64,000 nt of DNA from Arenibacter amylolyticus. GTDB taxonomy: Bacteria; Bacteroidota; Bacteroidia; Flavobacteriales; Flavobacteriaceae. The stretch spans positions 1 through 64,000 of the forward strand of contig NZ_MTAZ01000007.1 of NCBI RefSeq assembly GCF_002150785.1, given 5' to 3'. Both the position numbers and the translations under genes were made by a program. Positions 1,983-45,662 of the stretch are shown here, in pieces (the first letter of the stretch is position 1; the number at the start of each line of letters is the position of its first letter). The notes under the pieces were generated by a model. That model ran no database searches and was not told the DNA's origin. It saw only the letters and a program-made list of their open reading frames with translations.

Positions 1983-2010
1983 AAAAAACCCCAGGACAAC
2001 TTCCTGGGGC
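1983..2010 (-). terminator. Intrinsic terminator of nrdBA
   Basis: Perfect 8-bp stem CCCCAGGA/TCCTGGGG (1989-1996 and 2002-2009), followed on the minus strand by six T residues (1983-1988). It sits about 30 bp after the nrdA stop. Confidence 0.85.
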
Positions 2011-2040
2011 CTTACTACTTTAGTTTACTTAAAGCTGTAT

Positions 2041-3846
2041 CTACGCCTCACAACTAGCACACTCTTTTTTCTGTCTAAATTTTTGCGCGGCATTCATACT
2101 ATGCTGATAGTAGAGGGATTTTAAGCCCAATTTCCAAGCAGTGACATGGATCTTGTTTATTTCCTTCACCGGCATATCTGGATGCACGATAAGATTCACC
2201 GACTGCCCTTGATCTATATGATTCTGGCGATTTGCAGCTTGGTAAACAATATCCATCTGATCTATCTCCGAGTAGGTTTTAAACACCTCTTTCTCCAAGT
2301 CCGAAAGGAAATCTAAATGCTGCACAGACCCATCATAATCTCGGATACTACGCCACACCTCTTGGGTATTTTTTCCTTTTTCCTCTAGTAGCGCCTCTAG
2401 GTATGGATTTTTAATAGTGGTTTTAATCTTGGCAATATCTTTCACATAGATATTAGACCAAATAGGCTCTATCCCTTGTGAAACCTGCCCTAGAATAAAA
2501 GCGGAGGAAGTTGTAGGAGCAATAGCATTTAAAGTAGCGTTACGTCTACCATACCCTTTAAGCACCTTAGGCTCTCCAAATCTATCGGCCAATTCACTTG
2601 AAGCGGTATAGGATTTCTCCTTAATCAATTTAAAGATTTCACTATTTAGGTTATAGGCTTCCTGACTATTAAAGGGCAACATTTTGGATTGCAAAAACGA
2701 GTGCCATCCCAATACTCCTAAGCCCAATGCCCTATTTTCCTTTGCAAAGTTATAGGCCCGTTCCATGAATAGGAAGGTTTGGCGGTCTTCCCTTTCCTCG
2801 GAATCCCTATATTCCTCTAATTTTTCTATAAATTCCGTAATTACCGCATCCAGAAAATAAACCATTGTTTCCACCGCATCGGTATCTTTCCACTTATCAT
2901 AATGCAATAAGTTTACGGAAGATAGCACACAAACAAAAGACCACTCGTCATTGGAGGGCAGCATAATTTCTGTACAAAGGTTACTGGCATAGATGGTATG
3001 CTTCTCATTTCGGTACACATCGGCGGCAGCGTTGTTTGCATGATCTTTAAAAAAGATATAGGGGTACCCCATCTCACCTCTTCGCTGCAATACCTTTGCC
3101 CAGATGGTTCTCTTTTCTACATCCCCATCTATCATTTCCTGCATCCATTTATCCGTTACGGTAACCCCATGGGTCAGTTCCTGAATAGGATTCCCTTCGG
3201 TACCAATCTCCAAAAACTCCATAATGTCTGGATGCTCTACGGGCAAGTAGGGTGAAAAACGACCACGTCTTACCGAGCCCTGACTTACTACATCTACCAT
3301 AGACTCGAACAACTGCATAATATGAACAGCTCCCGATGCCTGTCCGTTATTTTTTACTTCAGCGCCACGATGACGGATCTTTCCGAAATACCCGGAGGTA
3401 CCCCCTCCTAATTTAGACATCATCCCTACTTCCGATTGGGTGTACAAAATATTCCCCATATCATCGTCTATGTGAGATCCAAAACAGCTAATAGGGAGTC
3501 CTCTTTTCTTCCCAAAGTTAGACCAAACAGGGGAAGCCAAAGAGTAGAAGCCCTGAGACATATACCCATAAAATTTATCTGAGTACCCTGGTATTTGAAG
3601 AATCTCCTCTGCTCTATCGGCTATTTCCCGGATGCGCTCTTCGGCAGACATTCCATTGGAGATATATCCTAAGGCCAGGAAGTTTCTACTATGTTCGGTT
3701 AACCATTCAAAACCTTTATTGTTTTTTTCTTTACTCTTTTCTAGCGCTTCTTTTCTAGACGCTATTAGCAATTCGCTCTGGTTGGTGGTTTGGACTTCGG
3801 AATCTGCGGTCAATTTGTTATCGTTCATATTAAAAAAGGTCTTCAC
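2041..3846 (-). CDS. nrdA: Ribonucleoside-diphosphate reductase, alpha (catalytic) subunit
   Basis: Catalytic subunit of class I ribonucleotide reductase, which converts NDPs to dNDPs. Active-site residues are in place: Cys121 and Cys306 as the redox pair, the N289-x-C291-x-E293 motif (radical Cys and its neighbours), Tyr579-Tyr580 of the radical-transfer path, and a C-terminal C596-x-x-C599 re-reduction pair. At 601 residues it is short for an NrdA because the N-terminal ATP-cone is absent; that domain is on NrdB here. The first ATG overlaps the end of nrdB by 17 bp. Met7, whose ATG starts 1 bp after the nrdB stop codon, is an equally plausible start. It is co-transcribed with and downstream of nrdB and ends at a strong terminator. 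Confidence 0.95.
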   Translation of the reverse strand: MKTFFNMNDNKLTADSEVQTTNQSELLIASRKEALEKSKEKNNKGFEWLTEHSRNFLALGYISNGMSAEERIREIADRAEEILQIPGYSDKFYGYMSQGFYSLASPVWSNFGKKRGLPISCFGSHIDDDMGNILYTQSEVGMMSKLGGGTSGYFGKIRHRGAEVKNNGQASGAVHIMQLFESMVDVVSQGSVRRGRFSPYLPVEHPDIMEFLEIGTEGNPIQELTHGVTVTDKWMQEMIDGDVEKRTIWAKVLQRRGEMGYPYIFFKDHANNAAADVYRNEKHTIYASNLCTEIMLPSNDEWSFVCVLSSVNLLHYDKWKDTDAVETMVYFLDAVITEFIEKLEEYRDSEEREDRQTFLFMERAYNFAKENRALGLGVLGWHSFLQSKMLPFNSQEAYNLNSEIFKLIKEKSYTASSELADRFGEPKVLKGYGRRNATLNAIAPTTSSAFILGQVSQGIEPIWSNIYVKDIAKIKTTIKNPYLEALLEEKGKNTQEVWRSIRDYDGSVQHLDFLSDLEKEVFKTYSEIDQMDIVYQAANRQNHIDQGQSVNLIVHPDMPVKEINKIHVTAWKLGLKSLYYQHSMNAAQKFRQKKECASCEA

Positions 3847-5110
3847 TGGTTATACTTTGGGTTCTTTTACTATAATTTATGGATCGCTTAACGAAGAAAT
3901 CTCCGTGTTTGGTGCCTATAATCTCGTCATCAAACCACTCTGTTTCCGCTATGAGCGTTTGATCTATTTCAAATATTTTTCCAATCCCAATACTCTCTAG
4001 GGATTTATTAAAGCGGTCTTTTATAAACTCGTTAACTAAGTTTTTGGGTAAAAAGTCCAATTCTCCTGCCTCAAAGATCCAATCGATAATTTTACTCTCC
4101 GCCTCAAAAGACTCCCTACACATTTCCTGAATCATTAGCTCATAATCCTCATCGAACCAATCTGGATTTTCTTGTTTTATAATTTTAATAAGGTCAATTC
4201 CAAAATCCCCATGGATCTGCTCTTCTTTAGAAGTAGCTTCTACGACATTGGAAATTCCCTTAAGCATATTTTTATGCTTGTTAAAAGCCATGATGATCAA
4301 AAATTGGGAAAAGAGGGAAACGTGCTCTATAAAGAGTGAGAAGAGCAAAACTGACTCTGCATACTCTCTATTATCCTCACTTTTGGCATTTCTAAGGGCG
4401 GTTTCCAAATACTGCACCCGTTTCATGATCGCCGGTTTCTTTTTCAGGTTTTTAAACTCTTCGTTCAGCCCCAAAATCTCCAAAAGATGGGAATAGGCAT
4501 CATGGTGTCTAACCTCACTTTCGGCAAAGGTAGAACCCACCGAACCTATTTCCGGTTTTGGCATCCTATGGTATAAATCTCCCCAGAAGTTTTTTACGGC
4601 TACTTCTATTTGCGAAATAGCAAGCATGGTATTCTTGATGGCAGAGCGCTCAACATCTGTAAGTAAAGCCTTAAAGTCCTGTATGTCACTAGTGAAGTTA
4701 AATTCGGTATGAATCCAATAGGAATGCCTTATGGCTGGCACGTATTCGTACAGCTCTGGATATTCGTAAGGTTTAAGATTGAGTCGCTTTTCAAAAATAT
4801 TGCTTTTACGTTTTTTGGCTTGCTCGTTCCTATATAGGATATAGGCTTTTGCCACCTCAAAAAAGCCACTTTCCATTAATTTTGTCTCCACCAGATCTTG
4901 CACCTCCTCAACTGTAGGCACATAGTCTCTATCCTTCTCTTTTCGTTCTGCAAGAAATGTGTACACCAATTCGGTTATACGCTCGGCATCGGCGGGCTCA
5001 CCCTGTTCTACGGCGGTCATGGCCTTTAATACGGCATTGCTTATCTTTTTTAATTCAAAGGGTTCTGTTGCAAAGCCTCTTTTTACAATTGAGGTAATTT
5101 CCATGGTCAT
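3830..5110 (-). CDS. nrdB: Ribonucleoside-diphosphate reductase, beta subunit with N-terminal ATP-cone (class Id-like)
   Basis: Radical-generating subunit of class I ribonucleotide reductase, 426 residues. Residues about 5-95 form an ATP-cone (KRGFATEPFELKKI near the start, then a VEEVQDLVE helix and AKAYILYR), a domain normally found on NrdA. The ferritin-like core follows, with metal-ligand candidates Glu169, Glu199, His202, Glu262, Glu297 and His300. Tyr206 sits four residues after His202, at the position of the E. coli Tyr122 radical. A beta-fused ATP-cone is known from Leeuwenhoekiella blandensis, where the enzyme uses a dimanganese cofactor (class Id) and dATP inhibits through beta oligomerisation. 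I infer the same here from architecture only. Alternative start at Met3. A cobalamin riboswitch lies upstream. Confidence 0.95.
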   Translation of the reverse strand: MTMEITSIVKRGFATEPFELKKISNAVLKAMTAVEQGEPADAERITELVYTFLAERKEKDRDYVPTVEEVQDLVETKLMESGFFEVAKAYILYRNEQAKKRKSNIFEKRLNLKPYEYPELYEYVPAIRHSYWIHTEFNFTSDIQDFKALLTDVERSAIKNTMLAISQIEVAVKNFWGDLYHRMPKPEIGSVGSTFAESEVRHHDAYSHLLEILGLNEEFKNLKKKPAIMKRVQYLETALRNAKSEDNREYAESVLLFSLFIEHVSLFSQFLIIMAFNKHKNMLKGISNVVEATSKEEQIHGDFGIDLIKIIKQENPDWFDEDYELMIQEMCRESFEAESKIIDWIFEAGELDFLPKNLVNEFIKDRFNKSLESIGIGKIFEIDQTLIAETEWFDDEIIGTKHGDFFVKRSINYSKRTQSITSEDLF

Positions 5111-5650
5111 TAAATATTTATAAATTTAAAATCATGCTTGTTATAAAGGTCTACCTTTATTCTTTATGATTATATATTTTCAAATTTGATTGTCCACATG
5201 GTTATTAACATTCAGGGTTTTAACGCTCCAATGAGGAGTTAAATAGCCCACCATGCTAGACATTACTTAGTATGCGCTCAATTCCAGTTAGCCCTTTCCA
5301 ATAGGAATAATTGAGTTATTTTCACTCTAGGATTACATTTTTCCCTACAAAAAGCAATCTTTACACCTCTCTAGAACAGGACTACATCTTTTAAATAATA
5401 GAAAAGATGTCACCGATTCGCGAACAACCAGTTTACTACGCTTATAACCACTTAAAACTTTTCCAAATGAATAGTCTTAGTTTAAAGCGGTATTGCGGTA
5501 CCGAGCAATACTTTATTTATGAAGAAATTTCTTGTGGTAAATGGTTTAAGAAATAACCTTGGATCTTCCATATAAATAGATAACCCTCTTGTTATAACCA
5601 AGTACACATTAGACTACAACTTCAATCGCGAAAGCATTGTCAATTCGGAA
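5111..5650 (-). other. Long leader between cobalamin riboswitch and nrdB
   Basis: About 540 nt with no convincing gene. I find no exact TAnnTTTG promoter on the minus strand within it, which supports one transcript from the riboswitch into nrdB. It contains a perfect 9-bp hairpin (5384-5392 and 5402-5410), a 7-bp inverted repeat GTATTGC/GCAATAC (5490-5496 and 5505-5511), and a 29-codon open frame from ATG at 5571 to TAA at 5482 that may be chance. No T-rich rho-independent terminator is obvious, so the switching mechanism is not visible. Confidence 0.5.
5384..5410. repeat. Perfect 9-bp inverted repeat in the nrdB leader
   Basis: ACATCTTTT and AAAAGATGT separated by 9 nt. In the nrdB transcript it would form a hairpin about 275 nt before the start codon. 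It is not followed by a U-run, so it may be an RNA structure or a protein site and not a terminator. Confidence 0.5.
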
Positions 5651-5810
5651 TAGGCAGGTCTCCTGACTTGTAACTGCTTCCACCGTCCTTCCCGCATATG
5701 CAGTGGACACTCTTAGATGAAAGCATTTGGCATGTTACTTACAGTTGCGCGACAGTTCGTGATTTTCACACGATTCCCTTTTTGCTACGGTTAAGTAAAT
5801 CCTTTTCCGG
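5651..5810 (-). promoter_or_regulatory. Cobalamin (B12) riboswitch
   Basis: The minus strand carries the landmarks of a cobalamin riboswitch in order: AAAAAGGGAA (about 5774-5783), a hairpin with GTGTGAAAATCAC, the B12-box core GCGCAACTGTAA (5739-5750), TGTCCACTGC (about 5699-5708), GGGAAGGACGG (about 5683-5693), and the 3' hallmark AAGTCAGGAGACCTGCC (about 5653-5669). All conserved blocks are present with normal spacing, so the aptamer looks functional. It reads toward nrdBA. Such switches normally reduce expression when adenosyl- or methylcobalamin is bound. Confidence 0.95.
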
Positions 5811-5841
5811 TTATTGAAGAATATTAAGAACATACAAAGCG

Positions 5842-5849
5842 CAAATGTA
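5842..5849 (-). promoter_or_regulatory. Candidate -7 promoter element for the riboswitch-nrdBA transcript
   Basis: TACATTTG on the minus strand matches TAnnTTTG exactly and would start transcription near 5836, a few tens of nucleotides before the first conserved riboswitch block. A TTTG occurs upstream at 5863-5866, but only 13 bp away instead of the usual 19-21. Confidence 0.5.
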
Positions 5850-6309
5850 GACATAAATTTCACAAAAACGTCCTAAGCTTAGTGAAGTTTATCTGGACAT
5901 TTTTTAAGTTAGCATATATCACAAAAACACCATTTTCCTATAATTCCTTGACGTTTAAATGTATATTTATAGTACCTACAACTTACTTGTAAGATGTATA
6001 TAAATACTATTACCCCTGAACGTTACTATAACGTACCTATCTATATTTGGATCTAAGCAAAATACAGTAGAATTTAGGAGGAAGGCACTCCTAATCTAGG
6101 TATGCGATCTTATAACCAATTACCTCCGAGCAGGCCATAAGGCATCGGACGGATACTACCGACAACAATTCCCCCTTATATGGAACGAGCAGGTGCGCCT
6201 GTGCGGAGTGGGTAGGCAAGCGCTGAGGCATACAAATCTCGCTTAGTGAGTAAAAAGCTCCTATTTTTAGGAGTTGACCTTTATAAATCATAACTAAACC
6301 AAAAAAAAC
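5850..6309. other. Intergenic stretch ahead of the orphan gene
   Basis: No credible gene. It holds the presumed minus-strand promoter region of the nrd transcript and, on the plus strand, the leader of the gene starting at 6310. A hairpin AGCTCCTA-TTTT-TAGGAGTT lies at 6256-6275; read on the minus strand it ends in a short T-run, read on the plus strand it does not. The segment 6160-6240 is somewhat more GC-rich than its surroundings, with no recognisable content. Confidence 0.35.
6042..6049 (+). promoter_or_regulatory. Candidate -7 element upstream of the orphan gene
   Basis: TATATTTG matches TAnnTTTG exactly. If used, the leader before the ATG at 6310 would be about 255 nt and include the hairpin at 6256-6275. 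No -33 partner is evident. Confidence 0.25.
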
Positions 6310-45445: not shown

Positions 45446-45517
45446 TAGTCCGTAGGGGATTCGAACCCCTGCTACCAGGATGAAAACCTGGCGTCCTAAC
45501 CCCTAGACGAACGGACC
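45446..45517 (-). tRNA. tRNA-Glu (anticodon TTC), copy 1
   Basis: A 72-nt cloverleaf on the minus strand: acceptor GGTCCGT pairing with ACGGACT, anticodon loop TTTTCAT with TTC, and T-arm GGGGTTCGAATCCCC. The 3' CCA is not encoded. Identical to the second copy 73 nt away. Confidence 0.95.
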
Positions 45518-45590: not shown

Positions 45591-45662
45591 TAGTCCGTAG
45601 GGGATTCGAACCCCTGCTACCAGGATGAAAACCTGGCGTCCTAACCCCTAGACGAACGGACC
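45591..45662 (-). tRNA. tRNA-Glu (anticodon TTC), copy 2
   Basis: Same 72-nt sequence as copy 1, transcribed in the same direction. The identity covers the whole gene and only a couple of flanking bases, so only the genes were conserved after duplication. The CCA end is not encoded. Confidence 0.95.

Follow-up and report, generated by a model that had tools for sequence, protein, structure and literature searches.

A cobalamin riboswitch upstream of a class Id ribonucleotide reductase operon in Arenibacter amylolyticus, with a conserved promoter-like block between switch and genes

Control of ribonucleotide reductase (RNR) genes by vitamin B12 has precedents. The class I operon nrdABS of Streptomyces coelicolor is under a B12 riboswitch (Borovok 2006, as cited in PMC4991794), and B12 elements precede nrdDG in delta-proteobacteria with the class II enzyme NrdJ (Desulfovibrio vulgaris and Desulfuromonas), for which the same logic was proposed (PMC545781). 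In the family Flavobacteriaceae, the NrdAi/NrdBi enzyme of Leeuwenhoekiella blandensis is of class Id, carries its ATP-cone on NrdB and shares the genome with a class II enzyme; its control is described as allosteric, not transcriptional, and the word riboswitch is absent from the main texts of both papers (PMC5794259, PMC8463856). A flavobacterial cobalamin riboswitch is known before a TonB-dependent transporter of Flavobacterium psychrophilum (PMC9723704). Here we describe a cobalamin riboswitch ahead of a class Id-type nrdB-nrdA operon on the minus strand of a 64,000-nucleotide stretch of Arenibacter amylolyticus (contig NZ_MTAZ01000007.1, positions 1 to 64,000; hereafter the window). The locus resembles nrdABS in that a B12 riboswitch stands before a class I RNR operon with NrdJ encoded in the genome, and nrdDG in that a B12-independent isozyme lies behind a B12 element where NrdJ is present. 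However, nrdABS is described as class Ia and NrdDG as class III in a different phylum, whereas the enzyme here is class Id with the ATP-cone on the beta subunit, and a promoter-like block lies between switch and gene.

An earlier note on this DNA, made from the sequence alone, had placed here a cobalamin riboswitch with a -7 promoter motif just upstream and, downstream, nrdB-nrdA followed by a terminator. All of these were recovered, the last as a terminator-like hairpin. The riboswitch matches the complete Rfam covariance model RF00174 (positions 1–189 of 189) with 90.2 bits, well over the gathering score of 31.5, and an E value of 5.2e-21. The genome contains two cobalamin riboswitches in all, and the nrdB-upstream one recurs in the other three Arenibacter genomes that bear a class Id nrdB with ATP-cone, which argues against a chance match. 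Mean identity of the aptamer among the four species is 0.87. Loop L5 is complementary to loop L13 outside the aptamer core (GUCGCG/CGCGAU), a predicted pseudoknot of the kind that is the usual mode of action of adenosylcobalamin riboswitches (PMC2258182). L5/L13 read UCGCG/CGCGA in all four Arenibacter nrdB leaders and UCCCG/CGGGA in the second riboswitch of the same genome, on the contig designated C29. As judged from the sequences, this difference is compensatory and two-sided, with complementarity kept. A C-rich L5 occurs in all 24 other family switches whose elements were located by script. The flavobacterial transporter riboswitches, including that on C29, belong to the same RNA family; the C29 switch stands 73 nt ahead of a BtuB-like receptor gene, whereas the nrdB switch has a long leader.

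The putative distal promoter, P1, is marked by a -7 motif that matches the consensus TAnnTTTG exactly (PMC9723704, PMC6847099). The motif begins 29 nt ahead of the aptamer and is invariant in all four Arenibacter leaders; among 31 other flavobacterial B12 riboswitches examined, only two show TAnnTTTG without mismatch in the 120 nt before them. A TTG sits 12–13 nt upstream of the P1 motif, a spacing shorter than that of flavobacterial promoters. The riboswitch and nrdB are separated by ~ 530 nt (514 nt from the end of L13, and 542 nt from the B12 box, to the first nrdB ATG). Elsewhere the distance from box to next start is roughly 14–211 nt, as measured in 24 of 29 other flavobacterial switches, which are the best-scoring ones and include five without a matching box that went unmeasured. 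The spacer is poorly conserved, with mean pairwise identities among the four Arenibacter species of 0.58 (5450–5599) and 0.39 (5216–5449) and large indels. Identity climbs to 0.64 and 0.72 near nrdB in the four-species alignment, where two sequences stop a few bases from the start codon. A scan for sigma-70 promoters, a type that does not fit this phylum, gave 9 matches against 13.0 expected; one of them (11/12) lies inside the proximal block described below and was not used.

The block, at 5144–5210 on the minus strand, provides a candidate proximal promoter, P2. It consists of TGTTRATAA and a TGTGGANAA-like box, then GAnnTTTA mostly 59–60 nt on, and all 81 flavobacterial sequences examined (the window and loci L085–L164) carry it before their class Id nrdB. 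These loci are the nearest relatives of this NrdB and no random sample. TGTTRATAA stands 98–117 nt ahead of the point where the nrdB match begins in all of 80 sequences (the window and 79 named loci; the addition of genome G121 makes 81), where shuffles give an expectation of 0.79. The pattern NAnnTTTR follows 52–60 nt past box 1 in 81 of 81, at 59 or 60 nt in 75 of them, and is contained in 14% of shuffled segments. A matrix of two parts, with 77 loci from outside Arenibacter as its training set, gave scores of 33.7 (window), 36.4, 37.0 and 40.1 for the four Arenibacter loci, and 21.6–51.3 for 70 training loci, against a background maximum of 0.8 in 119 random 800-nt stretches of the window. 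The closest match to the tandem-box pattern in the own genome is the block itself, with one mismatch. Transcription of nrdB must also start at some point in the relatives in which no riboswitch was detected, and the block is the conserved candidate for it. Reading the tandem boxes as DnaA boxes was not supported, as neither TGTTRATAA nor the box pair occurs in C40:1–9000, which holds dnaA and reaches just 1.5 kb to one side of it. The earlier note mentioned neither the ~ 530-nt gap nor the block, although its riboswitch, genes and terminator were right. Its placement of the switch to control nrdBA stands in that the aptamer lies ahead of the operon, but lone control is not supported, given the intervening promoter-like block. 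It had named a separate promoter downstream of the aptamer as grounds for rejecting B12 control, and the block is a candidate for such a promoter.

The predicted enzyme is of the class Id, ATP-cone-on-beta type that had been claimed. NrdA passes TIGR02510 with 775.6 bits (cutoff 602.25) and has no ATP-cone, which is located instead at residues 7–98 of NrdB (PF03477). The closest solved chain to NrdB, 5olk, aligns across residues 3–426 with an E value of 5.7e-217 and is the dATP-inhibited NrdB of L. blandensis (PMC5794259). The class Id residues of the window NrdB are E169, K173, Y206 and T293, assigned by an alignment through the NrdB of genome G053, whose best chain is 6cwo. The class Id positions of Flavobacterium johnsoniae are Tyr104, Thr191 and Lys71 (PMC8463856); its Glu67 is our own mapping and not from that paper. 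By this residue criterion, a Glu/Tyr pairing with Thr and Lys, the sequence of NrdB is of class Id type; the class is further marked by a Mn2(III,IV) cofactor and the lack of a stable tyrosyl radical, which would be predicted here. Two start codons lie close together at 5104–5110; the second ATG (5104) is probably the start of nrdB, since it encodes the Met with which the majority of aligned relatives start (MEIT-like).

The earlier note had also inferred that this organism has NrdJ and switches between metal-radical and B12-based deoxynucleotide synthesis according to B12 supply. PF02867 finds two large subunits in the genome, the window NrdA and an 850-aa open reading frame (ORF) on contig C37, and the latter is NrdJ (TIGR02504, 576.6 bits, cutoff 399.95). 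The PF00268 search yields the window NrdB as the single small subunit and no second class I small subunit in the own genome. Three proteins with a B12-binding domain (PF02310), namely MetH, methylmalonyl-CoA mutase and IcmF, score above cutoffs. B12 uptake genes appear to adjoin the C29 riboswitch: the best NCBIfam match of the TonB receptor behind it is the B12 receptor TIGR01779 (218.9 bits, under the cutoff of 599.7), and beside the switch lie a divergent BtuC-like permease gene (227.3, under the cutoff of 334), an ABC ATPase gene and a substrate-binding-like ORF. With NrdJ, a lone class I small subunit and B12 genes found, the components of the physiological inference are therefore present.

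A survey of flavobacteria found the riboswitch-nrdB arrangement in Arenibacter and in four further genera of the family, ahead of class Id-type operons. Within Arenibacter, 4 of 18 genomes carry the nrdB with ATP-cone, all four with the riboswitch, and all 18 carry NrdJ. Among 120 family genomes, 24 have a cone NrdB (E < 1e-200), eight a cone-less relative (E 1e-105 to 1e-81) and 39 a near full-length NrdJ (E < 1e-270). The riboswitch stands directly before nrdB in G000 and G014 of the 24 cone genomes and in G053, G007 and G089 of the eight cone-less ones; the 1.5 kb upstream were rescanned for every one of the 24 cone loci and for six cone-less loci, while G022 and G023 rest on the first, more strictly filtered scan. 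The riboswitches of the cone-less group are short. That of G007 scores 55.3 bits with RF00174, that of G053 is over the cutoff of RF01482 (51.9 against 50) and under that of RF00174 (31.2 against 31.5), and that of G089 is over the cutoff of RF00174 (32.4) and under that of RF01482 (45.5). The NrdB proteins of these three, the cone-less ones compared at those sites, keep all four class Id residues. A B12 box (up to 3 mismatches, up to 2 kb upstream, nrdB strand) was found in 2 of 80 named loci, both Arenibacter; the loci are the best 80 of at least 562 with this NrdB, four of them have less than 1 kb of upstream DNA, and the simple box would miss the short riboswitch type. The arrangement is therefore rare, and no general feature of the enzyme. 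That B12 controls class I RNR as a rule in Arenibacter was rejected. An 816–891-aa large-subunit frame (one interrupted), presumed class I and distinct from NrdJ and from this nrdA, occurs in 15 of the 18 genomes, and none of 28 riboswitch places is near these frames: 14 of the 15 genomes have the frame on a different contig, and G121 has more than 350 kb between it and the nearest riboswitch. B12 control thus seems confined to the class Id operon. Besides its full-length cone-less nrdBA behind a riboswitch, G007 holds a second and short piece of nrdB at C5:112273–112805 (a 117-aa frame with one stop), which has a riboswitch match of 39.1 bits to itself.

NrdJ is present in 7 of 8 riboswitch-bearing and 9 of 27 riboswitch-less genomes with class Id-type nrdB (Fisher p 0.0098; 35 genomes, comprising 32 of the family and three congeners, with class Id-type nrdB called by homology and relatedness ignored in the statistics), which suggests an association in the expected direction. 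Restricted to cone NrdB in the family sample, the counts are 2/2 and 6/22 (p 0.10).

The order of elements differs between operons. The best-scoring block match of G014 (15.7, offset 62) begins 390 nt ahead of nrdB; its second half stops a few bases short of the riboswitch, and nothing between switch and gene matches better. The weaker match in G007 (8.6, offset 59) also ends just ahead of the riboswitch. The block matrix gave no match in G053 (-11.5) or G089 (-11.0), and three other cone-less loci score 4.2 (L033) and about -4 (L032, L034). Going by these matches, where a riboswitch operon outside Arenibacter has a block match the block precedes the switch, whereas in Arenibacter the switch, with a -7 motif of its own, precedes the block. 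Locus L033 belongs to G100, a genome with NrdJ, and its cone-less nrdB is preceded by a decayed-looking B12 leader that retains a TTTTCGCATAAAAG hairpin; this leader, seen by eye, was not counted, since the Rfam cobalamin search gave it no score at a limit as loose as E 5.

We consider it somewhat probable that a distal, B12-repressed promoter and a proximal, B12-independent promoter jointly feed the class Id nrdBA operon. The proposal builds on what can be read from the DNA, namely the aptamer, the kissing-loop complementarity, the P1 motif, the P2 block, NrdJ, the class Id residues and their conservation. A distal transcript would start from P1, carry the riboswitch in its 5' leader and run into nrdBA. 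With B12 bound, L5 would pair with L13 and the leader would be shut down, so that little would be contributed from P1. When B12 is scarce, distal read-through would add NrdBA while NrdJ is without its cofactor, and a B12-independent start at P2 would maintain basal expression. As the promoter-like stretch common to relatives sits between switch and genes, B12 probably tunes nrdBA rather than fully shutting it off. Termination of the distal transcript would be the step that B12 affects, because L13, at 514 nt from the first ATG, is too distant for direct masking of the nrdB start, which is unlikely at this distance; Rho-dependent termination of the leader is possible.

Several observations weigh against this proposal. 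Between aptamer and gene the terminator scan called no intrinsic terminator on the nrdB strand, so that this expression platform was rejected, and a looser scan of the leader gave weak candidates, none common to the species, and no other expression platform. The minimum-energy fold of 5590–5838 is no more stable than those of shuffled sequences (z -0.04) and is uninformative, for which reason the case for the riboswitch is made by the covariance model and conservation. The -7-like motif of P2 is GAnnTTTA rather than TAnnTTTG and has no clear -33 partner, and P2 may therefore be an operator or another element; its identity among the four Arenibacter species, 0.64, is below that of the aptamer. 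The block scores of G014 and G007 exceed the background maximum but fall under the range of the training loci. The association with NrdJ weakens when the three related congeners are removed (4/5 against 9/27, p 0.074) and is uncorrected for relatedness. No NrdJ was found in the riboswitch-bearing G089, a genome that is 82% complete, and the riboswitch is absent in 9 of 16 NrdJ-bearing genomes with class Id-type nrdB.

Conservation of the riboswitch together with its kissing loop would also fit a model in which nothing else controls nrdBA, after the pattern of Streptomyces nrdABS, and the proximal block acts as an mRNA or operator element rather than an independent promoter. In G014, G053, G007 and G089, where it stands directly before a class Id-type nrdB, the riboswitch could indeed be the only control, and the best block matches of G014 and G007, upstream of the switch, give the layout that sole control predicts. 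Arenibacter departs from this layout: downstream of the switch it keeps, whole and at the usual site, the block of relatives in which no riboswitch was detected, which makes sole control there doubtful, if still credible. The long leader, with its poorly conserved, indel-rich middle, could also mean that the riboswitch belongs to a short RNA of its own or to a gene since lost, and that transcription stops well before nrdB, leaving the proximal promoter alone to drive nrdBA. An ATG lies ~ 43 nt past the box in three of the four species by eye, and other switches can have a start codon there. However, a leader ORF as the regulated gene was rejected, since the nrdB strand of the window leader has only three ATG-started frames of at least 20 aa, 20–29 aa long, none common between species by eye. 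Moreover, switch and nrdBA occur together in all four Arenibacter genomes that have this nrdB, and operons of class Id type in other genera lie directly behind B12 riboswitches. We regard this explanation as improbable.

The tandem order of riboswitch and intact proximal block would also permit transcription interference, in which distal read-through at low B12 disturbs the proximal promoter and alters the timing or even reverses the sign of control. No direct evidence points to it, and a fall in nrdBA at low B12 would be of no use at a time when NrdJ is unable to function; it is very improbable. Interference may nonetheless enter a broader, speculative and on the whole unlikely extension of the two-promoter proposal. 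In this extension B12 would act as a promoter-choice switch rather than an off-switch, a riboswitch-bearing promoter having been added upstream of the intact and widely conserved ancestral nrdBA promoter to set a long leader against the ancestral start, and riboswitches would have been recruited to class Id operons of Flavobacteriaceae several times in different layouts.

B12 repression of B12-independent isozymes is an established principle, as the nrdABS and nrdDG precedents attest; within the literature accessible to us, the class Id setting and the proposed two-promoter layout would be a new variation on it. The earlier note knew of no such arrangement with a class Id enzyme, and no description of a B12 riboswitch on a class Id operon was found among the papers listed on riboswitches with RNR, on class Id or on L. 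blandensis, subscription papers being mostly outside the search; the term nrd is absent from the main text of two riboswitch surveys. If the proposal holds, the class Id enzymes, which use manganese, and marine flavobacteria come within B12 control of deoxynucleotide synthesis; many of these bacteria presumably rely on scavenged B12. A manganese enzyme and a cobalt-based enzyme would then be paired under a single nutrient signal. The strongly conserved promoter-like block, of which no description was found, makes RNR regulation in the family directly testable. Coordinates are collected in Table 1.

Table 1 Features of the riboswitch-nrdB-nrdA locus in the window.
Feature	Position	Strand	Basis
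Putative distal promoter P1, -7 motif TACATTTG	5842–5849	-	Exact TAnnTTTG
Cobalamin riboswitch aptamer, RF00174	5636–5820	-	90.2 bits, full-length; 142/185 positions invariant in four species
Loop L5 (GUCGCG), kissing-loop half	5748–5753	-	Complementary to 5625–5630
Loop L13 (CGCGAU), other kissing-loop half, just past the aptamer	5625–5630	-	Invariant in four Arenibacter species
Poorly conserved spacer, riboswitch to proximal block	5216–5599	-	No intrinsic terminator called on nrdB strand
Proximal block, tandem boxes TGTTAATAA-N3-TGTGGACAA	5190–5210	-	TGTTRATAA conservation; tandem sequence TGTTAATAACCATGTGGACAA
Proximal block, -7-like GACCTTTA, candidate promoter P2	5144–5151	-	NAnnTTTR spacing; joint matrix score 33.7
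nrdB, class Id beta subunit, N-terminal ATP-cone	3830–5110	-	PF03477 and PF00268; 5olk, E 5.7e-217; class Id residues
nrdA (NrdE-prime), alpha subunit without ATP-cone	2041–3846	-	TIGR02510, 775.6 bits; PF02867 sole Pfam domain
Terminator-like hairpin after nrdA	1985–2013	-	12 pairs, 6 G-C, T tail

Two further observations were made along the way. In locus L143, from an 'Algicola' metagenome-assembled genome, a cobalamin riboswitch of 95.4 bits (3371–3574, minus strand) lies upstream of nrdB and faces away from it, towards a 136-aa ORF that is thioesterase-like by eye. Elsewhere in the window, two tandem tRNA genes on the minus strand (45446–45517 and 45591–45662) have identical scores and aligned sequences.

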